NCBI GenBank assembly: GCA_003218935.1
Contig: QHPA01000076.1
Span: 1-19,227, forward strand
DNA: 19,227 nt
Source: Verrucomicrobiota bacterium
GTDB lineage: Bacteria > Verrucomicrobiota > Verrucomicrobiia > Limisphaerales > AV2
Direction: 5' to 3'
Shown here: positions 5,536 to 19,081 of the stretch, piece by piece
Numbering within the stretch: the stretch's first letter is position 1
Layout of the letters: every line of letters starts with the position of its first letter
Position numbers and translations under genes: made by a program
Notes under the pieces: model-generated
What the model was told of the DNA's origin: nothing
The model's input: only the letters and a program-made list of their open reading frames with translations
The model's database searches: none

Positions 5536-8500
5536 CTAGGACTGACCGCTGAACTGCGCCAGGTTCCGTGCGGCCTCCTCGATCCACGCGGAGTCGGGCA
5601 GGGCGTAGGGACGGAAGGTTTCGAGCGTCCCGGCCTGCGCGTTTTGGAGGATAGCGCGATGAAGACCGAGGTTCGCGGCTTTGGGCGTGTCGATGAGACT
5701 GGCGGAGTCGGTGGCGCTCATCTGGAACAGCACGCGCAGTTCGAATTCGCTGAGCGCCTTTCGGCTGAGGCATCGGTTCGCGTTGTTGAGGGTGTCGCAA
5801 GTGCAGATGACGTGAAACCCAAGCTGGGTGCCCTCGCAGAGAATCCGGTTGAGTGATTTGCCAGGATTGGCGGGAGCATTGGCGTCGTCCAGGGAAATAC
5901 TGAATTCGTCCTCGTGCCGCAGTCCTTTGAATCGTTGAATGCCGTTAATGAACAGGTAAACCGCCGGGGCTTTGGCCGCGCTTGCGGAGTCGGAACGCTT
6001 TTCAAATTCGCCCGCCAACGCGCCAAACACGTTCTCCAGTTCGGGGTTGCCCGCCAGCGTAATCTCATGCGGAATGGCCCCGACAATCTTTTCGAGGAAA
6101 TTCCGGTGCATTGAATCTTGTGGACTCGCGTCAAGGACAATGAATCGCGCCTGGTTGCGCGGATGCTGGGCGGCCAGAGAAACCAGCGCGACGCCAAGCA
6201 TCGCCAGAGCGGATTCATCGCGCTGACCAAGGATGAGGAGGTTGTTGCCGCTCTGGCGATGGAAAGCGACTTCCGTCGGTCCTTTAATGGAGTTGGGCGC
6301 GCCGAGCCAGGCGCGCGGGGCTGTCGCAGGTTGTATCGATTTGGCCGTAAGGACTCGTTGCAGCACTGCATTCTCGCGCACGTCAGCAGGAGCATTGCCT
6401 TCGAACACGACCGGTCCAGCCGGTGGCGCGCCCGTTTGTTGCGCGCGACGGCGGACTTTCTCCAGCCACCGTTCACGTTCTTCCTCGGAAAGCCACACGA
6501 CTTGAAAAGGACTATTGCCTTCGATGGCGCCGGCGGCGTCGTTGTAGATGGCTTCGCCCGGTCGCGAGAGCAGGCGCGGAGCCGGATTGTCGTCATCCAT
6601 GATGAGCATGGCGTCCGCTTCGTTGCACTGAAGGGCGATGCGGACGACCATCTGGCCGATCGTGGTTCGGGCGAGGGTGTAAGCGCCGCCGAGGGTCTGT
6701 GAACCCAGCAGCACGTGAATGCCGAACGCCCGGCCCTGGCGGACCAGCCGGTCGAGCAGAAGCGCGGCGTGTTGCGAGACGCGGTCGTCTTCAACGAAGA
6801 ATTCCTGAAACTCGTCAATGATCAGGAGCGTCCGGGGGAGCGGCTCTGCGCCGCCGGCCCGTTTGTAGCCGGGCAGGTCCTGGACGCCGAGCTGGCGGAA
6901 GAGATCGCCGCGGCGACGCAGCTCCTCGTCCACCCGCTCCAACACGCTGAGACCGAATTCCCGGTCGCTCTCGATGGCCACCACCCGCGCTTGCGGCAGT
7001 TTGTGGGTCGCGTAGCATTTGAACTCGACGCCTTTCTTGAAGTCCACGAGGTAAAACTCGACCTGGTCCGGACTGCACCACAAAGCAAGGTTGGTGATGA
7101 TGACGTGGAACAGGGTGGATTTGCCGGAGCCGGTCTTGCCGGCGATAAGCGCATGTTGGCGGGTGCCTTTGCCGAGCGCGAGTTGCTGGAGCTTGGTGGC
7201 GCCGGTGCGCCCGATGGGGACGCGCAGTTCGTTGGTGGTCTCCAGAGTCCAGAGCGCGGAATCTTCCGGGGCGATTTCAACGAAAGGCATTTCGACGCGA
7301 TTCGAATCCACGCTGATGCGGCCCACCTTTTCCAGAAACGCGGTGGCGAGGCCGGCCTCGGGCGGTGGATCCAAAAGCAGTGTCGTTCCTTCCAGCGGTT
7401 TGTCGGCCAGAACGAAGCGGTCGCCTTTGGCGCGGACACGCACGCTCGCCTTGCGAAGGTCATCCGGGACAAACTCCACGCTCGTCGGCTTTCTCAGGTC
7501 CCAATGAATGAGAGTGAACACACCGCAACGCGGCCCGCTGGCAGCGATACTAAGAAGGCGTCGGACGGCCAGATCACTGAAGTTGACCGGAAAATCGGCG
7601 ACGACCAGGAAGTGATACGGCTCGGCGATGCGGCCCGCCTGTTCGTTGTAATCTGCGATGGTCGCGTATTCATTCCGGAGATAGAGCTGGGTAACCTTTT
7701 CGATATGCTCGTTCAACTCAGCGAGGCGTTGCTCGAGGTGATCAGGCTGCGTCCAGATGCGGCGATTGATGAGGCGGTCTTCGTGATCCGTGAGGTGCAT
7801 GAGACCGGCGAAGCTTTGCCCGAGGTCGAGCGGGTCGAGGATCGTGAACACCACCCGGCCGGGCGGCGCGCCAGAGAGCAGCCGCAGCACCAGATTGTTG
7901 AGCGCAGTGATCGCGGGTTCGCGGCCTGACTCTTTTGTTTCGAGCAAAATCGAGCCGCGATCGGGGAATGTGAGCAATAACGGCAGCGAAAACCGGGCGG
8001 CACCCGGAAGGGCCAGCCGCTTGGCGTCCGGCAATGCGCCCGAGAGTCTTTCAACATCCACTTCCAGGCGCGCGAAGGGCGCCGAAGCAACGAACTCGCG
8101 GGGTGCTTTCCAGTTCTCCCACAAGGCAGCGCGCCATTCGGGGAAAAGTTTGCCGGCTGACTCGCGCGCGGCGGCGAAGGTGTCGTAAACGGACTGAGTC
8201 GTGTTCTTCCATTCGGCCTGGAGCGCCTGCCATTGGGCCTGCTGAGCTGATTCAAACTGGTTCGTTTTTGTTGAGCGTGATGATTCGAGCCGGGCGCGGT
8301 CCGCTTCCACTTCATGCTTCAAGCGGCCGACTTCTTGGTCGCGCTGCTGTTGGAGACGTTCCAGGCCATGTTGAAGGAGCTGTTCGTTCCTGCTCGTGGC
8401 GCGTGACAGTTTGGCGTCGAGGTGACGCTGCAGATCATTGCGCATCGTTTCCGCTTCGTTAACCGCCTGGTTCCAGTGTTGATTGAGCTGGTCGGTCCGG

Positions 8501-9549
8501 GCTTCGGCTTCGCGGCGGATGCGCTCACTTTCCTTTTGATAATTTGCTTCGGCAGTTTCCCGGCAGGCATCCAGGCGCGCGCGCGCCCGGCCCATCGCGG
8601 CGGCCAATCTCTTTGCCGACGCCCCGGCCATAAGCCGGCCGAGCCAGTGAAGCGCAAGCACGCCGCCGAGGCACGCGGCGAAGGAGATGGCCGCCTGCGG
8701 CCAGGTGAAAACGCGCGCGGCAAAACGCGAACTCAGCGGAACAGCCACGATGTGTCCGATCAGGAGCAACGGAACAAACAGCCAGAGCGGAAGCAGACTG
8801 AAGAGCAACGGCAACGGCGAAATGCGGAACCAACCGAGTTTCCGTTTTGTCTGCGCGAGCAGCGCGCGGAATTCCTCGAGGAGACGGCATTCGTCTGCCG
8901 TGGCGCTGGCTTCCTCCTTTTTCCTTTGGCCTCCCGACTCACTCGCCCGTCGGAGAGCCTCTCCCCCGTTATCGGGGGAGCTGGATGGGGTAACGATGCG
9001 GTTCGCGAGGTCCAACTCCGACGATGATTCATGGGGAGAGTCGAGCAGGCGTTGGAACCGGGTGTATCCGCGCAAGGCGACCCGCGATTTGCGTTCCAGC
9101 ACAGCCAAAGCATCCTGTTCGCGGGCCAGCTCCTCCTGAAAGCTCGTGAAGTGCCCGGCAATCCGTTTCTGCTCGGCTTCCTGATGGCGGCTGGTTTGCA
9201 GCAGCTCGCGCTGGACTTCGTTGATTTGCCGCCCTTCGTGGCTTTCGATGCGCTTGAGGTGTTGTTTCCTGGCGGTGGTCTTGGCGCGGAGCATTCCGGC
9301 TTTGCGCTGACGGTGGCGGGATTCAAGCCGCTCCTTACCGGCTTGAAACGAGGCATCCGCTTCGGCGACCGCCTGGGAGAATCGCGACCCCAATTCTTTG
9401 ACCTCCTGGTCGAACTGCCAGTCGATGCGGGACCTGTTTTGCCTGAGTTCCTGTTCCAGTTGATCCGCGCGCGTCCTGGAGTTCTGGACGACGCTACTGA
9501 GGTGGTCCAGGAGTTCGAGCGTCCGTTCCAAACCCAAATAACTACTCAC
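5536..9549 (-). CDS. Membrane-anchored FtsK/SpoIIIE (EccC-like) ATPase with coiled coils
   Basis: This is the motor of the minus-strand operon, 1337 residues. GTG 9549 is chosen because AGGAG lies 5 bases upstream and the start overlaps the previous stop by 8 bases; a GTG at 9576 is the longer alternative. Order: N-terminal coiled coil (about 10-170); a linker (185-204) encoded by a dispersed repeat; two transmembrane segments (about 245-268 and 286-308); a second long coiled coil (about 310-480); then three FtsK-like ATPase modules. Only the middle one is intact, with Walker A GKTGSGKS (804-811, K810) and Walker B LLIIDEF (D912/E913). The first (around 500-720) and third (around 1080-1337) have lost their Walker A (for example GQRDESALAM). 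Two membrane helices followed by tandem motors is the EccC/EssC plan of type VII secretion. No eccB, eccD, essB or mycosin gene is present. A DNA translocase role cannot be excluded. Confidence 0.88.
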   Translation of the reverse strand: MSSYLGLERTLELLDHLSSVVQNSRTRADQLEQELRQNRSRIDWQFDQEVKELGSRFSQAVAEADASFQAGKERLESRHRQRKAGMLRAKTTARKQHLKRIESHEGRQINEVQRELLQTSRHQEAEQKRIAGHFTSFQEELAREQDALAVLERKSRVALRGYTRFQRLLDSPHESSSELDLANRIVTPSSSPDNGGEALRRASESGGQRKKEEASATADECRLLEEFRALLAQTKRKLGWFRISPLPLLFSLLPLWLFVPLLLIGHIVAVPLSSRFAARVFTWPQAAISFAACLGGVLALHWLGRLMAGASAKRLAAAMGRARARLDACRETAEANYQKESERIRREAEARTDQLNQHWNQAVNEAETMRNDLQRHLDAKLSRATSRNEQLLQHGLERLQQQRDQEVGRLKHEVEADRARLESSRSTKTNQFESAQQAQWQALQAEWKNTTQSVYDTFAAARESAGKLFPEWRAALWENWKAPREFVASAPFARLEVDVERLSGALPDAKRLALPGAARFSLPLLLTFPDRGSILLETKESGREPAITALNNLVLRLLSGAPPGRVVFTILDPLDLGQSFAGLMHLTDHEDRLINRRIWTQPDHLEQRLAELNEHIEKVTQLYLRNEYATIADYNEQAGRIAEPYHFLVVADFPVNFSDLAVRRLLSIAASGPRCGVFTLIHWDLRKPTSVEFVPDDLRKASVRVRAKGDRFVLADKPLEGTTLLLDPPPEAGLATAFLEKVGRISVDSNRVEMPFVEIAPEDSALWTLETTNELRVPIGRTGATKLQQLALGKGTRQHALIAGKTGSGKSTLFHVIITNLALWCSPDQVEFYLVDFKKGVEFKCYATHKLPQARVVAIESDREFGLSVLERVDEELRRRGDLFRQLGVQDLPGYKRAGGAEPLPRTLLIIDEFQEFFVEDDRVSQHAALLLDRLVRQGRAFGIHVLLGSQTLGGAYTLARTTIGQMVVRIALQCNEADAMLIMDDDNPAPRLLSRPGEAIYNDAAGAIEGNSPFQVVWLSEEERERWLEKVRRRAQQTGAPPAGPVVFEGNAPADVRENAVLQRVLTAKSIQPATAPRAWLGAPNSIKGPTEVAFHRQSGNNLLILGQRDESALAMLGVALVSLAAQHPRNQARFIVLDASPQDSMHRNFLEKIVGAIPHEITLAGNPELENVFGALAGEFEKRSDSASAAKAPAVYLFINGIQRFKGLRHEDEFSISLDDANAPANPGKSLNRILCEGTQLGFHVICTCDTLNNANRCLSRKALSEFELRVLFQMSATDSASLIDTPKAANLGLHRAILQNAQAGTLETFRPYALPDSAWIEEAARNLAQFSGQS
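8946..8994. repeat. Hairpin repeat CTCCCCCG-CGGGGGAG inside the ATPase gene
   Basis: A perfect 8-base stem, CTCCCCCG (8961-8968) and CGGGGGAG (8973-8980) with loop TTAT, is preceded by a small GGAGA/TCTCC inverted repeat. The style matches the intergenic hairpins at 13356-13382 and 13475-13499. On the minus strand it codes for PSSSPDNGGEALRR, a low-complexity linker. Confidence 0.6.
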
Positions 9550-9754
9550 AATCGCTCCTGATTTTGCGGAGGACACTTTCGAGATTGGCGATGCCGGTGA
9601 TCGCCGAGGTTACCGTGGACTCCAGTTCCAGCAGGTAGCGCTCCTCGAATTCCCGGGCTTTGTTGTCCCTCCAATATTCCCGGGTGTGCTGCCACCGCAG
9701 CAGCAGTTCCTTGGTGAGCGCCGCCAGTCGCGCCCCGTTCGCACTCGCGCTCAT
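9542..9754 (-). CDS. Small W-x-D helical-hairpin protein (WXG100-like)
   Basis: The product is 70 residues with no signal peptide or membrane segment, and is predicted to be mainly helical. A central YWRDNKAREFEERY (residues 27-40) aligns without gaps to TWQDQEHAKFAEEF in the first gene of the operon. That suggests two related helix-turn-helix hairpins, as in WXG100 (EsxA/EsxB-like) partners, though the canonical W-x-G is W-x-D here. ATG 9754 overlaps the upstream TGA (ATGA), and a perfect AAGGAGG lies 6 bases before it, so the start is secure. Its end overlaps the ATPase start, implying translational coupling. It is shorter than typical 90-100-residue WXG100 proteins, so it might instead be an adaptor or chaperone. 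Confidence 0.82.
   Translation of the reverse strand: MSASANGARLAALTKELLLRWQHTREYWRDNKAREFEERYLLELESTVTSAITGIANLESVLRKIRSDCE
9555..9559 (-). promoter_or_regulatory. Ribosome binding site deciding the ATPase start
   Basis: AGGAG on the minus strand lies 5 bases before GTG 9549, inside the end of the 70-residue gene. It supports GTG 9549 over GTG 9576. Confidence 0.65.
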
Positions 9755-10323
9755 GCGCCGCCTCCTTTCGTAACGGATGGGTGGGCTGCATCGTTTTCCG
9801 GAGCCACTGCGTCCACGGCGGCGGTTCTTGAAGCAGACGAAGGCGCCGGAGGGGCAGTTTCAGCGTAAGCGGCAAGAGTCGCCGCGGTTCCTTCAAGCAA
9901 GGCTGCAGCCTTGCTCATGTCATAGGCGAGAACCTGGCGCAAGTGTACGACAACCTTGGTGCGGGATTCCACTTCAGTTTCGTATCGCCGGATCCATTGT
10001 TTGACGCGCGCCAGTCCTTCCTCTGCCTGGCGCAGAGCGAGCTTGGCCTTGTTGACGGTCAACCGACGGGCCTTGATGGCCTCCGGCATGTCGGACAGTC
10101 GCGCGGTCAACAGTTCCTGCTCCGCCTGGGCAAGTTCTTTGGCACGATGGTGCACCAGCTTCTTCCAATGAAGCTGCCGATCCGTTTCGAGCCAGATTCG
10201 GGTACGGACGACATCCTCGCTGATTTCGTCCAGGAGACGGCCGGCCTTCTCGAGATAAACGATCAAGTTGGCCTTGAAATCGTCCAGGGCCTCGATCGAG
10301 GTGACCTTGGCGGGTACGGGCAT
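9751..10323 (-). CDS. Coiled-coil protein of the WXG100/FtsK operon
   Basis: The product is 190 residues and almost wholly helical. It has heptad-rich coiled coil from about residue 10 to 140 (for example DDFKANLIVYLEKAGRLLDE and LAQAEQELLTARL), then a flexible Ala/Pro-rich tail (about 150-190). There is no signal peptide, membrane segment or catalytic motif. ATG 10323 (MPVPAK) is preferred: it starts 4 bases after the upstream stop, whereas a longer frame from 10353 would overlap the previous gene. It ends in an ATGA overlap with the next gene. I do not recognise a named family. By position it could be a structural component or a larger secreted substrate of a type VII-like machine; that is inference. 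Confidence 0.8.
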   Translation of the reverse strand: MPVPAKVTSIEALDDFKANLIVYLEKAGRLLDEISEDVVRTRIWLETDRQLHWKKLVHHRAKELAQAEQELLTARLSDMPEAIKARRLTVNKAKLALRQAEEGLARVKQWIRRYETEVESRTKVVVHLRQVLAYDMSKAAALLEGTAATLAAYAETAPPAPSSASRTAAVDAVAPENDAAHPSVTKGGGA

Positions 10324-10327
10324 GATG

Positions 10328-10600
10328 CTAGTGCTGAGACAAGTACTCTTCAATGCGCTGGGCTTTCCTCAACAGGAAAGGCGTGTGCTGATTGGAGATC
10401 TCCATGAATTTCGCCAGGGCTCTCATCGTTTGTCGGAACTCCTCAGCAAATTTGGCATGCTCCTGGTCCTGCCAGGTTTCGCCCAGCGCGGCAAACCTGG
10501 CTTGCAACAGCGTAATTCTGTTCTGGAGATCCTGGTTAAACCGCTTCAGTTCTTCGGCGAAACGCCGGACCTCCGCGGGATCCATGACAGCTTTCGACAT
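10328..10600 (-). CDS. WXG100-like protein (type VII substrate-like)
   Basis: First gene of the minus-strand operon, encoding 90 residues with no signal peptide or membrane segment. Two amphipathic helices (about 8-37 and 48-85) are joined by LGETWQD, placing W43-x-D45 centrally where WXG100 proteins carry W-x-G. Size, helix-turn-helix layout and an adjacent FtsK/SpoIIIE ATPase are the standard hallmarks of this family, which typically forms dimers and is exported by EccC/EssC. The family's C-terminal YxxxD/E signal is not seen; the protein ends EEYLSQH. ATG 10600 is chosen because GAAGG lies 7 bases upstream; an in-frame GTG at 10627 would add nine residues and run through a palindrome. The Gly-to-Asp change makes the assignment WXG100-like rather than certain. 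Confidence 0.8.
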   Translation of the reverse strand: MSKAVMDPAEVRRFAEELKRFNQDLQNRITLLQARFAALGETWQDQEHAKFAEEFRQTMRALAKFMEISNQHTPFLLRKAQRIEEYLSQH

Positions 10601-13636: not shown

Positions 13637-14902
13637 ATGGACGTCGCACGACCAGACATAGCCCGCAGGCGCCGCCGCCACAGGATTCTCTATTCCTTCG
13701 CCGGCCTCGGCGCACTGGTCGTAATTACCATCGGCCTTTCACGACTCAAGCCGGCGGCGCCGCTCGTCGAAAACCCCTGGCCCGACACCGTCAAACGCGG
13801 CGAAATGCTCAGGCAGGTGCGCGGCAACGGCACGCTGGTGCCGGAGGAGATCCTTTGGATACCGACGCTCAGCGCCGGTCGAGTCGAGCGGATTCTGGTT
13901 TTGCCCGGAGCGCGCGTGAAAGCCGACACCGTGTTGGTCGAGTTGAGCAATCCCGATGTCGATCAAGCTGCCTTCGACGCTGAATCACAACTGAAGGGAG
14001 CGGAAGCGGATATGGCTAACCTCCGCGTTCAACTGGACTCCCAAAAGTTGACGGAGGAGGCGATGGTCGCCATGGCTCAGGCCAATTACAGCGGCGCCAA
14101 GCTCGACTTCGAGGTGAACGACGAGTTGGCCAAAGCCGGCCTGGTGCCCGCGCTCACGCTGAAGCAGTCGAAGGCCAAAGCCGAGGAACTGGCCAAGCTT
14201 CTGGAAATCGAGCAGCAGCGTTTGAAAATCAGCGCCGACGCCGCCAGGGCGCAGCTCGCCGTGCAGGACGCCAAAGTCGCGCAACTGCGCGCGCAACTTC
14301 AGCTCCGGCGCCGCCAGGTGGAAGCCTTGAAAATCCGGGCGGGCATTGACGGCGTGCTGCAGAAGCTGGGCGACGCAGCGGCGACGACGCTCCAGGTCGG
14401 TCAGCAACTGGCGCCCGGCGCCACCGTCGCGCGCGTGGCCAATCCCGCGAAGCTCAAGGCCGAGATCAAAATCGCCGAAACGCAGGCCAAGGACATCACC
14501 TTCGATCAGAAGGCCGAAGTGGACACGCGAAACGGCGTCATCCCGGGACATGTGGTGCGCATCGATCCTTCCGCTCAGAACGGAACCCGGACCGTGGACG
14601 TGGCGTTGGACGGGGCCCTTCCGAAAGGGGCCGTTCCGGATCTCAGCGTTGATGGTACCATCGAACTCGAACGGCTCGAAAACGTGATGTATGTCGGCCG
14701 TCCCGTGCAAGCACAGCCGGAAACCACCGTCGGCGTTTTCAAAGTCGTGAATGGCGGCAAAGAAGCGGTCCGCGTGCCGGTCAAGCTGGGCCGCACTTCG
14801 GTGAGCACCATTGAAGTCGTTGAGGGGCTCCAAGTCGGCGACCAGGTGATTCTCTCGGACATGTCCCAGTATGATGCGTATGCGCGAGTAAGACTCCGTT
14901 GA
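13637..14902 (+). CDS. HlyD/RND-type periplasmic adaptor (membrane fusion protein)
   Basis: A 421-residue adaptor linking an inner-membrane transporter to the periplasm or outer membrane. A basic N-terminus (ARRRRRHR) precedes one transmembrane helix (about 19-36). Then come a beta-barrel/lipoyl half motif (GRVERILVLPGARVKADTVL, about 76-95), a long alpha-helical coiled-coil hairpin (about 115-235), the second lipoyl half (IRAGIDGVLQKLG), a barrel domain and a membrane-proximal domain ending VVEGLQVGDQVILSD. This order is typical of HlyD/MacA/AcrA adaptors. It sits 202 bases upstream of the ADOP permease, which suggests a MacAB-like pair, but no ABC ATPase gene lies between or near them. ATG 13637 lacks a Shine-Dalgarno. 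Substrate unknown. Confidence 0.9.
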   Translation: MDVARPDIARRRRRHRILYSFAGLGALVVITIGLSRLKPAAPLVENPWPDTVKRGEMLRQVRGNGTLVPEEILWIPTLSAGRVERILVLPGARVKADTVLVELSNPDVDQAAFDAESQLKGAEADMANLRVQLDSQKLTEEAMVAMAQANYSGAKLDFEVNDELAKAGLVPALTLKQSKAKAEELAKLLEIEQQRLKISADAARAQLAVQDAKVAQLRAQLQLRRRQVEALKIRAGIDGVLQKLGDAAATTLQVGQQLAPGATVARVANPAKLKAEIKIAETQAKDITFDQKAEVDTRNGVIPGHVVRIDPSAQNGTRTVDVALDGALPKGAVPDLSVDGTIELERLENVMYVGRPVQAQPETTVGVFKVVNGGKEAVRVPVKLGRTSVSTIEVVEGLQVGDQVILSDMSQYDAYARVRLR

Positions 14903-15104
14903 ATCGTTAAAACGTTAAATCGTGAAACGTGACTCGCGAATGAAAACTCCAAAAACCAAACTCCAAACAGCAAAGAAGCTCCAAGTTCAAAGCTCCAAGG
15001 CGGCGAGGCTGCCGCAGGTTTTGGGATTTGAAGTTTGGGATTTCTCTGGAGCTTGGTGTTTGGGATTTGGTGTTTTGGCCTCTCGTCAATCGTAAATCGC
15101 AAAT
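14903..15104. repeat. Intergenic dispersed repeat, imperfect A-rich hairpin
   Basis: The whole HlyD-permease gap is repetitive. It begins with CGTTAAAACGTTAAATCGTGAAACG-like units and continues with CTCCAAA/CCAAACTCC units (about 14944-15000). A GC-rich middle follows, then the complementary TTTGGGATTTGG/GGAGCTTGG units (about 15020-15080), and it ends in CAATCGTAAATCGCAAAT next to the permease ATG. The two halves can fold into a long imperfect hairpin. A 17-base word, CGAATGAAAACTCCAAA (14937-14953), recurs exactly at 19167-19183. Confidence 0.7.
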
Positions 15105-17522
15105 ATGTCTGAGCTGCGCTACGCCTTCCGCCAATTGCTGAAAAACCCCGGCTTCACCGCCGTGGCCGTCCTCACGCTTGCGCTCGGCATCGGAGCGAAC
15201 CTCGCGCTCTTCGCCATCCTCAACGAGCTGCTTCTCCGCCCGAAACCCGTCGCCAATCCCGATGAGTTGTGGGCCATTGAGCCAGCCGACTCAACTGGGC
15301 AACCGGTCTTTGCGAATGTCTGCAGACCCTACTACGAAGCCGTCCGCCAGCACGCAAGAGCGTTCAAAGGAGTCATCGGCTACGCGGGCATCATGGCGAA
15401 ACTGCGTACCAAGGAAGCCGCAGAGCGCATCTACGTGGAGCTTGTTTCGGGCGATTACTTCTCGTTTCTCGGCATCAGGCCGGCGCTGGGTCGTTGGTTT
15501 CTTCCGGAAGAAGACGCAAAGATGGGAACGCACAGCGTGGCGGTGATCAGCCATGGCTTTTGGCAAAGGCAGTTGGGCGGGTCTGGCGACGTCATCGGCC
15601 GCACGGTCACGCTGAACAACAACGCAATCGAGATCATCGGCGTTGCGCCCAGGGAATTCATTGGACTCGACTTCATGCAACCCGCCCTCTGGCTGCCGAC
15701 GAGCATGGAGAAATTGATGGATGAGACCACGCGCTACCACTTGGTGGGCCGCCTGGCAGAACCAAAACTGGCTGCGGCTGCCGCCGATTTATTGTCGCCG
15801 TTGGTCGCGGACGTGACGAAGGAGCTTTCCGGCTTCAGGGATCCGCAATGGAGCCACTACGGCGTGAACATCAACTTTCAGGGAGTGCGCCTTGGACCGA
15901 TCGGCCGAGGTTTGCTGGGGGTCGCGTTCATCAAGAAACGAATTCTCGACTTCCTCAAATTCGCTGGCGTAGCCACGGTGCTCCTGCTTCTTATCGCGTG
16001 CGCGAATGTGGCGAGTCTGTTTCTGGCGCGGGCATTGCAACGCCGCAAGGAGATGGCGACCCGCCTGGCGCTCGGCGCCACTCGCGGCGCGCTGGTGCGT
16101 CAGCTTGTCGGCGAAGGCATTCTGATCGCGGCGCTCGGGACAGCCGGCGCTTTGCTTGCCTTCTCTTGGATCGGCAGGATCATCACGCAGCTTGCAACTT
16201 GGTGGCAAGGGCCTGATCTCCACCCGGCTCTTGACCTGCGGCTCCTTCTTTTTGCCGTCGGCAGTCTGCTGCTCGTGGGGGTCGGCTTCAGTCTCTTCCC
16301 GGCGCTCAGCGCGACCGGTTTCCAGCTATTCACCGCGCTCAAGGATGCGGAAGGAAGCGATGGATCGGATCGAAAACGGGCGTGGCTGCGTCACGGCCTG
16401 ATCGTCGCGCAGATCGTCGGATCGCTCGCGCTCCTGTGCGGCGCGACGCTCTGCCTGCGCAGCATGAGCAAGCAACTGGCGGTGGACGTCGGCTTCCGAT
16501 CCGATCGGCTCGTGATCGCGCCGTTGAATCTGGAACGGATTGGGTTTGCGACCAACACCGTGGTGCCGGAACTTGCGGAGATCGCCCGTCGCGTCGCGCT
16601 GATTCCGGGGGTCGAGAAGGTTGGCTTGTCGGCCTCCGAGCCGCTCGTGGGGTGGGAGAGGAATATGGGCATTCCGCAACTAAAATCACCGGATGGCAAC
16701 GTCATTATGTTCGGCGTTGCCGATGTCGGGCCGGGTGTCTTCGCGGCGCTGGGGATTCCTCTCTTGCACGGCCGCGCGGTCAATCGGACGGATGTTGAAC
16801 TCGACCGCAAGGTGGCGGTGGTGAACGAGAGTTTCGTGAGGAAGTTCTGGCCGGATCAGGAACCGCTGGGGAAGCAGATTGAAGATGTTGAGGTAATCGG
16901 CGTCGTGAGGGACGCGCGTTTCGACCGTTTCGATGTGGCTCCTGGACCGATGGTGTTTTGGCGCGCGAGCAAGGAAAGTCTGCTTCAGACGAAACTGCTC
17001 GTTCGCGCGAAACGGAATCCCCGTCGCCTGATTGGGGACATTCGCGCTGAACTGGCTCGCATCCACCCCATGCTCGTGCAGGGAGAGATATGCACGCTGC
17101 GCGACACCATGAAGAACGCCTTGCGAATTCAGCACACTGCGCTGCGAATTCTTGGCATCCTGGGAGGTCTGGCGCTGGCGCTTTGCGTCATCGGAACCTA
17201 CGGCTTGATGGCCTTTGTCGTCACGCGCCGAACACGTGAGATTGGTCTCCGCATCGCCCTGGGGGCTACGCGCGGCTCGGTGATGAAGCTGATTCTGACC
17301 GCTGGGCTGCGGCTGGGCTTCATCGCGCTGGCGATCGGCCTGCCGCTGGCGCTCGGCTCGGCTGGGCTTCTCCGTCACCAACTCGCTGGCATCAGTCCGT
17401 TTGATCCGTTGTCCTTCGTTGCGGTGACGTTGTGCGTCCTTACGGCGTTGCTTAGCGCCTGCTGGCTGCCCGCGCGCCGTGCGGCGAAAGTCGATCCGAT
17501 GGAGGCGCTGCGGTACGAATGA
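15105..17522 (+). CDS. ADOP-type ABC transporter permease (MacB/FtsX family)
   Basis: An 805-residue inner-membrane permease of the duplicated orphan (ADOP) family: two MacB-periplasmic-core plus FtsX units in one chain. The N-terminus MSELRYAFRQLLKNPGFTAV and first helix (about 17-42) are family hallmarks. A periplasmic domain is followed by three helices (about 285-310, 335-358, 375-400), then a fourth (about 425-447), a second periplasmic domain, and three C-terminal helices (about 683-705, 730-752, 768-788). Both FtsX halves show the LGATRG signature (LALGATRGALVR and IALGATRGSVMK). The end DPMEALRYE is also family-typical. Family members usually lack an adjacent ATPase, as here. It probably works with the HlyD adaptor in efflux or lipoprotein/envelope handling. 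No Shine-Dalgarno is seen; a dispersed repeat runs up to ATG 15105. Confidence 0.92.
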   Translation: MSELRYAFRQLLKNPGFTAVAVLTLALGIGANLALFAILNELLLRPKPVANPDELWAIEPADSTGQPVFANVCRPYYEAVRQHARAFKGVIGYAGIMAKLRTKEAAERIYVELVSGDYFSFLGIRPALGRWFLPEEDAKMGTHSVAVISHGFWQRQLGGSGDVIGRTVTLNNNAIEIIGVAPREFIGLDFMQPALWLPTSMEKLMDETTRYHLVGRLAEPKLAAAAADLLSPLVADVTKELSGFRDPQWSHYGVNINFQGVRLGPIGRGLLGVAFIKKRILDFLKFAGVATVLLLLIACANVASLFLARALQRRKEMATRLALGATRGALVRQLVGEGILIAALGTAGALLAFSWIGRIITQLATWWQGPDLHPALDLRLLLFAVGSLLLVGVGFSLFPALSATGFQLFTALKDAEGSDGSDRKRAWLRHGLIVAQIVGSLALLCGATLCLRSMSKQLAVDVGFRSDRLVIAPLNLERIGFATNTVVPELAEIARRVALIPGVEKVGLSASEPLVGWERNMGIPQLKSPDGNVIMFGVADVGPGVFAALGIPLLHGRAVNRTDVELDRKVAVVNESFVRKFWPDQEPLGKQIEDVEVIGVVRDARFDRFDVAPGPMVFWRASKESLLQTKLLVRAKRNPRRLIGDIRAELARIHPMLVQGEICTLRDTMKNALRIQHTALRILGILGGLALALCVIGTYGLMAFVVTRRTREIGLRIALGATRGSVMKLILTAGLRLGFIALAIGLPLALGSAGLLRHQLAGISPFDPLSFVAVTLCVLTALLSACWLPARRAAKVDPMEALRYE

Positions 17523-17557: not shown

Positions 17558-19081
17558 ATGAACAGAAAAACACCGCTTCGTTTCGGGCCTGGTTGTCTCG
17601 CCGGCCTGTTGCTTGGCGTCGGGACGGTCGTTGGCGCGGTAGAATACGACCAGAAAATCGAAAAAGAGTTTCAAGTCAACACAGCGGGAAAACTGATCGT
17701 GCAGGCAGATCAGGGTTCGATTGAAGTCAATTCCGACACCAGCGATAAAGTCCACGTGCGCGTGCTTCGCCACGTCAAAGGAGGGAGCCAGGCGCAGGCG
17801 GATGAATTGTTTGCCAATCATGACGTGACGTTCAAGCAAGACGGAAACACGGTGTCCGTCATCGGGAGGAACAAGAAAGATCGATCCAGGTTCGGGAGTT
17901 TTCGCCAGGCCAGCTTGCAGGTGCGTTACGAAATCCGCATACCGAGGAAATACAACGTGGATCTGAATACCTCGGGCGGCGACATCCGCCTGGGTGAACT
18001 CGAAGGCGCGGTCATCACCCGGACTTCCAGCGGTTCAATCGACCTGGGCACGATTTCAGGCCCGATTGAGTCCAGCAATTCGGGCGGCGATATTCTTGTC
18101 GCGCACGCAGGCGGCGACCTGGTCGCACACACCTCCAGCGGTTCGATCAAAGTGCAAAGGGCCAGTGGGAAGGTCGAGGTCTCCAACTCCGGCGGCGATA
18201 TTCGTGTGGATGAGGCAGGCCAGGATGTTGTGGCCAGAACCTCCAGCGGCTCGATCACTCTCAAAACGGTGCAAGGCGGGGTGCAGGCCAGGAATTCAGG
18301 CGGCGACATCAGGGTCGAGTCAGCGGGTGGCGATGTCGCGGCACAAACATCCAGCGGTTCGATCCATCTCGGGAAAACCAAAGGCAATCGCGTGAATGCC
18401 AAAAATTCCGGCGGTGACATCAACATCGAAGCGATTGAGGGCGACGTAGTGGCGCAGACGTCCAGCGGTGCTATCAAGATAGGCATTGTAAAAGGCGGGG
18501 CGGAGGTCAGGAACTCCGGCGGCCAGATAAGCATTGGCGAGGCCGGCAGCGTCGTGGCCGAGACGTCGAGCGGTTCAATTGAGATCACGAGGGCGAAAGG
18601 CAAAGTGGAAGCAAAGAATTCGGGCGGCGACGTGCGCATAGACCAGGCCGATGGGGAGACCGTGGCTCGCACTTCCAGCGGCTCCATTGTAATCAAGCTG
18701 GCGAAGGGCAAAGTGGACGCCAGGAATTCGGGCGGAAAGATCGAGGTGAATGAGGCTCGCGACGTGGTGCTGGCGCATACCTCCAGCGGCCCGATCATCT
18801 TGGGTCTGGGAGCACAGCCCAAGGCGGATTCTCACCTGGAAGTCTCGGGCGGCGACATCACGGTGACGCTGCCTCGCTCAGTCGCAGTTGACCTGGACGC
18901 GGAGAGCAGCGGCGGAAAAGTCGTCAGCGCAATCCCGGTCACCACGACCGTGTCGGGCGAACAAAAGCCCGGCAATCTGCGGGGCAAAATCAATGGAGGC
19001 GGTCCGATGTTGAGCCTGCGGGCGAGTGCGGGCGACATCCGCTTGAATGAATCGGCTGCGCTGACCAACCGCGGTCGATAG
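17558..19081 (+). CDS. Secreted DUF4097-type beta-repeat protein
   Basis: A 507-residue exported protein. A signal peptide (basic MNRKTPLRFG, hydrophobic CLAGLLLGVGTVVGA, cleavage probably near residue 28) is followed by an N-terminal domain (about 30-130). Residues about 131-430 form a strikingly regular array in which NSGGDI and TSSGSI rungs alternate every 18 residues, giving a 36-residue period repeated about eight times, consistent with a beta-helix or stacked beta-sheet. A more degenerate C-terminal part (430-507) continues the SGG pattern. DUF4097 proteins are often encoded near regulators and transporters; their role is unclear. It lies 35 bases after the ADOP permease and is likely co-transcribed. 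ATG 17558 directly precedes the signal peptide; no Shine-Dalgarno is seen. An adhesin-like or surface-binding role is speculative. Confidence 0.88.
   Translation: MNRKTPLRFGPGCLAGLLLGVGTVVGAVEYDQKIEKEFQVNTAGKLIVQADQGSIEVNSDTSDKVHVRVLRHVKGGSQAQADELFANHDVTFKQDGNTVSVIGRNKKDRSRFGSFRQASLQVRYEIRIPRKYNVDLNTSGGDIRLGELEGAVITRTSSGSIDLGTISGPIESSNSGGDILVAHAGGDLVAHTSSGSIKVQRASGKVEVSNSGGDIRVDEAGQDVVARTSSGSITLKTVQGGVQARNSGGDIRVESAGGDVAAQTSSGSIHLGKTKGNRVNAKNSGGDINIEAIEGDVVAQTSSGAIKIGIVKGGAEVRNSGGQISIGEAGSVVAETSSGSIEITRAKGKVEAKNSGGDVRIDQADGETVARTSSGSIVIKLAKGKVDARNSGGKIEVNEARDVVLAHTSSGPIILGLGAQPKADSHLEVSGGDITVTLPRSVAVDLDAESSGGKVVSAIPVTTTVSGEQKPGNLRGKINGGGPMLSLRASAGDIRLNESAALTNRGR

Follow-up and report, generated by a model that had tools for sequence, protein, structure and literature searches.

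A four-gene type VII-like cassette with a WXG100-family protein and an EccC/EssC-like ATPase in Verrucomicrobiota

Most work on type VII secretion machines concerns Gram-positive bacteria. In the well-studied systems, several additional membrane parts are present (PMC11217815; statements on sources cited by PMC number refer to their accessible parts), and because of these extra parts the minimum for a working type VII machine is still a question. An arrangement in which a solo WXG protein is combined with a three-module ATPase whose middle module alone is active, was noted in a table footnote (footnote 6) by Zhang et al. 2012, where verrucomicrobia are named (PMC3482391). Moreover, Lentisphaerae and Verrucomicrobiae are among the groups in which WXG100 proteins have been identified (PMC6471051), and stand-alone WXG100/FtsK operons are mentioned in PMC11090510, citing Anantharaman et al. 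2012. In the Helicobacter pylori protein HP0062, the turn has the sequence W-R-D (PMC3397514). Here, we analysed a stretch of 19,227 nucleotides (the window) from a Verrucomicrobiota bacterium (assembly GCA_003218935.1, contig QHPA01000076.1), in which positions 5536-10600 of the minus strand encode a WXG100-family protein (g4), two further small proteins predicted to be helical hairpins (g3 and g2) and an EccC/EssC-like ATPase. The cassette belongs to the already known solo-WXG/FtsK class. A reading made from the sequence alone had proposed a reduced type VII-like machine. Our analysis supports this reading, and we consider it probable, though by no means assured, that the four genes specify a type VII-like export machine that is minimal and self-contained and sits in a diderm inner membrane.

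Gene order, co-occurrence and inheritance of the cassette

The four genes almost abut in the order g4, g3, g2 and ATPase gene, as the sequence-only reading had stated. The spacing between g4 and g3 is 4 bases, g3 and g2 overlap by 4 bases and g2 and the ATPase gene by 8 bases. The features of the locus are as follows:

10328..10600, minus strand: g4, WXG100-family protein of 90 amino acids (aa) with W-x-D replacing W-x-G; ATG start, PF06013 match
10466..10474, minus strand: W43-Q-D45 turn motif of g4; W43 and D45 invariant in 47/47
9751..10323, minus strand: g3, 190 aa, predicted long helical hairpin (AlphaFold2) with a variable disordered tail; ATG start
9542..9754, minus strand: g2, 70 aa, predicted W-x-D helical hairpin, shortened WXG100-like; ATG start with AGGAGG directly upstream
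9665..9673, minus strand: W28-R-D30 turn motif of g2, from the alignment and the predicted hairpin
5536..9549, minus strand: EccC/EssC-like ATPase, 1337 aa; GTG start, PF01580 match of 109.5 bits
8638..8829, minus strand: putative membrane helix pair of the ATPase, from a hydropathy scan
7255..8052, minus strand: ATPase module D0, lacking Walker motifs, FtsK fold only suggested by a weak PF01580 match and hhalign
6430..7254, minus strand: ATPase module D1, sole active-looking motor, 78% mean pairwise identity at 69 loci
7117..7140, minus strand: Walker A motif of D1 (GKTGSGKS), invariant in 30/30
6811..6828, minus strand: Walker B motif of D1 (LLIIDE), D and E invariant in 30/30
5539..6327, minus strand: ATPase module D2, degenerate FtsK-like, from hhalign to D1; no Walker A motif

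An in-frame GTG upstream, at 9576, would give an ATPase frame of 1346 aa. The start was set at 9549 because the alignment consensus of the relatives begins there and because a database protein with 100% identity (P0001) is 1337 aa long. Scans of the locus for promoters and terminators remained at chance level.

A scan of a genome collection yielded 558 loci, and the carriers of the best 80 are nearly all named Verrucomicrobia or relatives. A cultured strain, Verrucomicrobium sp. BvORR106 (L041), also carries the cassette. In a profile search, g4, g3 and g2 were found in this order before the ATPase gene at 73 of 75 loci; 84 loci had been profiled, nine with less than 1.3 kb upstream of the ATPase gene were left out, and the profiles were partly built from those same loci. 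The same picture emerged when each window protein was used as a single query sequence (80 of 99, a count that includes loci at contig ends, short stretches and duplicate loci). The exceptions are L024, which lacks g4 and g3, and L045, which lacks g4. Thus, the neighbourhood comparison revealed that the four genes are conserved together.

The co-occurrence of the parts was evaluated in 387 whole genomes, all within the phylum. The ATPase scored above 700 bits in 19 of them, the next score being 228, and a WXG100 protein over the Pfam cut-off was present in all 19 genomes with the ATPase and in 2 of the 368 others (hypergeometric 2.7e-30, relatedness ignored). In one of these two, G195, the contig also encodes a distant ATPase, and the other, G379, has two adjacent WXG100 matches and no ATPase on its 13-kb contig. 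WXG100 matches below the cut-off, at E 0.001 or better, occur in G051, G134 and G222, of which G051 has an adjoining distant ATPase. The locus L129 (6734-10802) of G051, a genome of the same class, encodes two 97-aa WXG100-like proteins, one matching PF06013 below the cut-off and one without a match. They are accompanied by an EccC-like ATPase of 836 aa and by a 316-aa protein that contains hydrophobic stretches and a charged coil. In the cassette genomes, g3 is present as a single copy beside the WXG100 gene (19/19), and the WXG100 protein is the sole one found in 17 of the 19 (at most 13 candidates scored per genome). In G086 all parts are present, although the ATPase gene is on another contig than the small genes, and in G004 the cassette is split by contig ends.

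We also considered a conserved fifth gene beside the cassette. This candidate was rejected because even the largest neighbouring gene family, which has a pilin-type look, is limited to 7 of 79 loci. For this comparison 63 of the 79 loci had at least 2 kb upstream and 63 had at least 2 kb downstream; L064 was dropped because it has no complete ATPase frame.

In an unrooted ATPase tree with 19 rows, the families f4, f9 and f41 each lie on one side of a branch, with supports of 100/99, 100/99 and 100/100, respectively; one f41 row is long-branched and 10 rows have an unusual composition. Moreover, three genomes of one genus (L125-L127) have both flanks in common. The cassette is patchily distributed in the phylum as well as inside two genera (g36, with 4 of 6 listed genomes, and g39, with 2 of 3), and this patchiness fits inheritance with loss better than recent spread. 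A phage origin was rejected, as none of 104 pattern matches in viral contigs was a relative, the patterns being taken from close relatives. Plasmid relatives were found in 5 of 72,556 records at E 1e-20, covered to at most 58% and at most 35% identical. The apparent mobility described for the solo-WXG class does not seem to extend to the cassette, and mobility at an older stage is possible.

The ATPase and the three small proteins

The ATPase belongs to the FtsK/SpoIIIE family (PF01580, 109.5 bits with a cut-off of 24). Curated models gave 110 bits for EccCa, 95 for EccCb and 92 for EssC, compared to only 26 bits for FtsK, whereas an FtsK control from a genome of the same order showed the opposite (FtsK 436, EssC 94 and EccCa 78 bits). 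The best solved sequence matches are EccC proteins and YukB, which rank above FtsK. Because of the opposite order of the model scores, a chromosome-partitioning FtsK was rejected, in agreement with the sequence-only reading. A second PF01580 protein, scoring 236 bits, is encoded elsewhere in the genome.

By hydropathy, the ATPase consists of an N-terminal part, a membrane region, a stalk and the motor part. Three partly overlapping membrane segments were detected in the window protein (residues 250-268, 265-283 and 295-313 in the 1346-aa numbering), which we read as one helix pair, as had been claimed before; at least two segments were found in 26 of 30 aligned ATPases, the window protein included, and one in the other four. 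EccC has two membrane helices (PMC11217815), and those of the cassette ATPase sit at the same place. Long coiled coils flank them on both sides.

Of the tandem motor modules proposed initially, D1 looks active, while D2 is degenerate and the FtsK fold of D0 is only suggested. Only D1 has the Walker A and Walker B residues, which do not vary in 30/30 aligned sequences. D2 is related to D1 according to hhalign (88.6%, P 2.7e-6). D0 is well conserved; it matches PF01580 weakly (E 3e-4, below the cut-off), and its comparison with D1 by hhalign gave P 0.017. At the 69 loci with all four genes, the mean pairwise identity is 78% for D1, 71% for g4, 57% for D0, 53% for D2, 41% for g2, 38% for g3 and 23-25% for the coils and the membrane part. 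Hence, D1 and g4 evolve slowest among the parts measured, which fits a motor and its fixed partner.

For the small proteins, 80 g4, 86 g3 and 90 g2 relatives were gathered, corresponding to 76, 82 and 85 distinct sequences. The WXG100-like protein of the sequence-only reading, g4, matches PF06013 with 38.5 bits (cut-off 27.3). Its profile matches solved WXG100 proteins, the closest solved relative being HP0062 (E 3.8e-10), and since HP0062 is a solved hairpin, g4 probably is one too. All 80 g4 relatives (76 distinct) have 90 aa and an ATG at the aligned start, the start codons having been picked by alignment. The W-x-G turn is not present in g4; it is replaced by W-x-D, which is invariant in 47/47.

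No Pfam family above the cut-off was found for g3 or g2, and both are predicted to be helical hairpins, in line with the earlier expectation for the 190- and 70-aa proteins. The AlphaFold2 model of g3, made with an input of 191 residues that has one extra leading residue, has a pLDDT of 86.7 and two helices (7-78 and 81-157). Sequence and structure searches with g3 returned unrelated coiled-coil or helical proteins only, and a family scan of the window g3 detected no toxin domain. The longest of the 86 g3 proteins (82 distinct) has 232 aa, the surplus being a tail rich in Pro, Ala and Ser. g2 ends with Asp-Cys-Glu, of which the Cys, the residue next to last, is invariant in 51/51 aligned proteins. 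A Foldseek search with g2 gave nothing at E 0.001 or better; WXG100 chains occupied ranks 1-5. When the g4 and g2 profiles were compared, the W-x-D motifs lay in register, yet the probability was only 1.5%; comparisons of g3 with g4 and with g2 gave no match. Three proteins of related cassettes, namely two WXG100 proteins and a Deinococcus protein of 144 aa, scored 17.8, 17.3 and 17.2 bits with the g2 profile, while one of 859 open reading frames of the neighbourhoods, used as a null set, reached 15.7 bits. Homology of g2 to WXG100 proteins is therefore likely, not proven.

Three findings that would speak against a type VII-like machine had been named beforehand, namely small proteins that are not helical hairpins, genes that are not conserved together and an ATPase that groups with FtsK. 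All three were examined, and the results given above point the other way in each case.

Distant relatives, proposed function and rival explanations

An Omp85 protein (E 1.1e-61), the only diderm marker examined, is encoded in the genome, which thus probably specifies an outer membrane, as the diderm-type neighbourhood had suggested before. The sequence-only reading had also stressed that further type VII genes are missing. YukD and YukC/EssB were found in none of the 19 cassette genomes, while the Bacillus subtilis control was matched, so the absence of essB stands and membership in the type VIIb secretion systems (T7SSb) was rejected. EccB was not found either (0/19), in a search that matched no control genome; eccD, eccE, esaA and mycosin genes were not searched for. 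Among the linked neighbours at the 79 loci, no outer-membrane or periplasmic partner was recognised. vWA, PP2C and Ser/Thr kinase domains were detected by Pfam in none of the five window neighbours, and none was recognised by eye in neighbour clusters common to at least three of the 79 loci.

Distant relatives of the cassette are informative with regard to the position of g3. A Helicobacter plasmid (L141, 5746-10148) encodes a WXG100-like protein, a coiled coil with a WHH/colicin-type nuclease, a SUKH-type protein, a 77-aa protein and an ATPase. The WXG100-like protein scores 24 bits with PF06013 (below the cut-off) and 49.8 bits with the g4 profile. Since a nuclease-immunity pair stands at the position of g3, this cassette is likely a toxin-exporting relative. 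A conjugative plasmid of Rhodococcus (L143, 5706-14821) carries genes for an ATPase with an N-terminal TerD domain, for proteins of 314 and 73 aa and for an 87-aa WXG100-like protein, which is below the Pfam cut-off and scores 33 bits with the g4 profile. Two annotated TerD-family genes adjoin this ATPase gene, which is a further tie of tellurite-type stress genes to the ATPase family. The g3 profile gave 16.3 bits on the 314-aa protein, compared to 11.4 bits on the next compared cassette protein and at best 9.1 bits in a null set of 999 sequences (859 neighbour open reading frames and 140 coil segments). Judging by these relatives, g3 may occupy a cargo slot.

Another layout was found on a Caballeronia plasmid (L142), which encodes a vWA protein, a WXG100 protein, a coiled coil of 436 aa, proteins of 113 and 76 aa, an ATPase, a CARF protein, a second vWA protein, a PP2C phosphatase and a kinase. 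A genome of the same phylum (G211) has a second, different operon of similar layout (L124, 6666-17345) with genes for a vWA protein, a WXG100 protein, a 442-aa coiled coil, proteins of 125 and 82 aa, an ATPase, a Card1-like CARF endonuclease (PF09002) and PP2C, and a weak protein-kinase match. By the same hydropathy scan, the ATPase of L124 has no membrane segment. The Caballeronia layout is also close to the CoCoNuT extension as far as this is described in PMC11090510.

On this basis, we infer the following mechanism. The ATPase would be composed of a cytosolic coil, two membrane helices, a coiled stalk and the modules D0-D1-D2. Six ATPases could form an EccC-like hexamer that serves as an inner-membrane pore, with D1 as the only motor and source of force. 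g4 is probably a dimer, as HP0062 is, and may pair with g2; it would bind to the motor, serve there as its activator and as the targeting signal, and would itself be exported. g3 could be the cargo or a cargo adaptor, as it stands at the position of the nuclease-carrying coiled coil of some related cassettes. The periplasm is taken as the safest destination because no linked outer-membrane part was found. A more specific version, which we regard as tentative and rather doubtful, is that the cassette is a type VII system that once exported a toxin and has since been domesticated. Its cargo would have lost the toxin domain, and the four proteins, namely a motor, two WXG100-fold hairpins and one long-hairpin trunk, would be a complete, lineage-inherited machine for bringing a structural helical hairpin into the envelope or across it.

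Several observations weigh against export by a type VII-like machine. The ATPase scores below the NCBIfam equivalog cut-offs for EccC and EssC (110, 95 and 92 compared to 509, 347 and 778 bits), g4 is below the cut-off of the NCBIfam WXG100_ESAT6 model, and inspection of the g4 end revealed no Tyr-x-x-x-Asp/Glu motif. In addition to YukD and YukC/EssB, LXG proteins are absent from all 19 cassette genomes, with the control working. Few cargo candidates are known because no second g3-like protein was found in the 19 genomes and, at the scoring depth given above, no second WXG100 protein in 17 of them. Furthermore, the Helicobacter nuclease protein is not recognised by the g3 profile, whose scores on the coiled coils of Caballeronia and L124 (1.3 and 6.8 bits) lie within the null; as none of these three proteins exceeds it, the argument for a cargo slot is mainly positional. 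Finally, relatives of the CoCoNuT type lack membrane helices (PMC11090510, as accessible, and the L124 scan).

These relatives invite the explanation that the cassette is an intracellular defence or stress device built from the same parts, which exports nothing, like the WXG100/EssC-like modules of TerY-P/CoCoNuT clusters. Some distant relatives, on the Caballeronia plasmid and at L124, do lie in such clusters, and PADLOC matches exist, though only on the ATPase domain and coils. We nevertheless regard such a device as unlikely: representative sequences of the neighbour clusters common to at least three of the 79 loci, inspected by eye, contained no defence-like family, the L124 ATPase lacks the membrane segments that the same scan finds in the cassette ATPases, and the ATPase tree tracks host families, which is unusual for defence genes.

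It would be still less probable that the FtsK-family motor moves DNA, with the hairpins as accessory proteins of a DNA translocase or DNA-transfer machine. This idea is compatible with the PF01580 membership of the ATPase and with its weak similarity to models and structures of conjugation proteins and translocases; the model scores for FtsK and EccCa, with their opposite order in the FtsK control, the constancy of the WXG100 partner and the lack of any relaxase or nuclease recognised by eye among the common neighbours argue against it. The least probable explanation is an envelope scaffold or signalling complex, in which the ATPase would remodel hairpins at the membrane without transport across it. 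While the invariant Walker motifs of the motor in 30/30 and the nuclease at the g3 position of one relative disfavour a mere scaffold, it would accommodate the coiled coils on either side of the membrane helices, the long hairpin partner, the lack of a linked outer-membrane or periplasmic partner among those found and the inheritance along the host lineage. Export across the inner membrane by the four-gene cassette is therefore the explanation that we prefer.

Two further loci of the window are of ordinary or repetitive character. Positions 13637-17522 encode an HlyD-type fusion protein followed by a MacB/FtsX-type permease, an efflux set of ordinary look according to Pfam, and positions 17558-19081 encode a DUF4097 'toastrack' protein (Pfam) with many near-identical internal repeats (TSSGSI / NSGGDI).

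Comparison with known systems

A fixed diderm cassette of four proteins, one motor and three hairpins, could serve as a test bed for how a WXG100 protein drives an EccC-like ATPase, and it would bring type VII machinery to a large environmental phylum. With the T7SSa, T7SSb and T7SSc-j systems of Gram-positive bacteria, the cassette shares a WXG100 protein and an EccC/EssC-like membrane ATPase; unlike them, as far as they are described in PMC11217815, it has no YukD, YukC/EssB or LXG protein (19/19), consists of just four genes and resides in a diderm host. The HP0062/HP0066 system of H. pylori is likewise found in a diderm host and combines a WXG100-like protein with an FtsK-family gene in the cluster (PMC4978471, PMC3397514). 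This comparison rests on HP0062, HP0066 being set beside the cassette by description only. For the H. pylori cluster, PMC4978471 lists an HNH/EndoVII-type nuclease and also a DnaK homologue, neither of which was found in the four genes.

The Type III-A CoCoNuT/TerY-P module, according to the accessible part of PMC11090510, resembles the cassette in its three ATPase modules with an active middle one and an N-terminal coiled coil, in its two WXG100-fold proteins, one of them lacking the motif, and in its coiled-coil protein. It differs from the cassette in having no membrane helices and a nuclease domain on the coiled coil, and in being set among vWA, PP2C and kinase genes. The solo-WXG class (PMC3482391) is matched by the WXG protein and the multi-module ATPase of which the middle module alone looks active. 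In contrast to that class, which in the text seen has a solo WXG protein and is apparently mobile, the cassette contains two extra hairpin genes, an ATPase with membrane helices and inheritance along host families. For the fixed four-gene form, no published description was found in titles and abstract openings, most subscription papers being outside reach. Thus, within a class that is already known, the new aspects are the fixed four-gene form with two further predicted hairpins, the membrane anchoring as compared to the CoCoNuT type, the family-level inheritance and the missing toxin domain.

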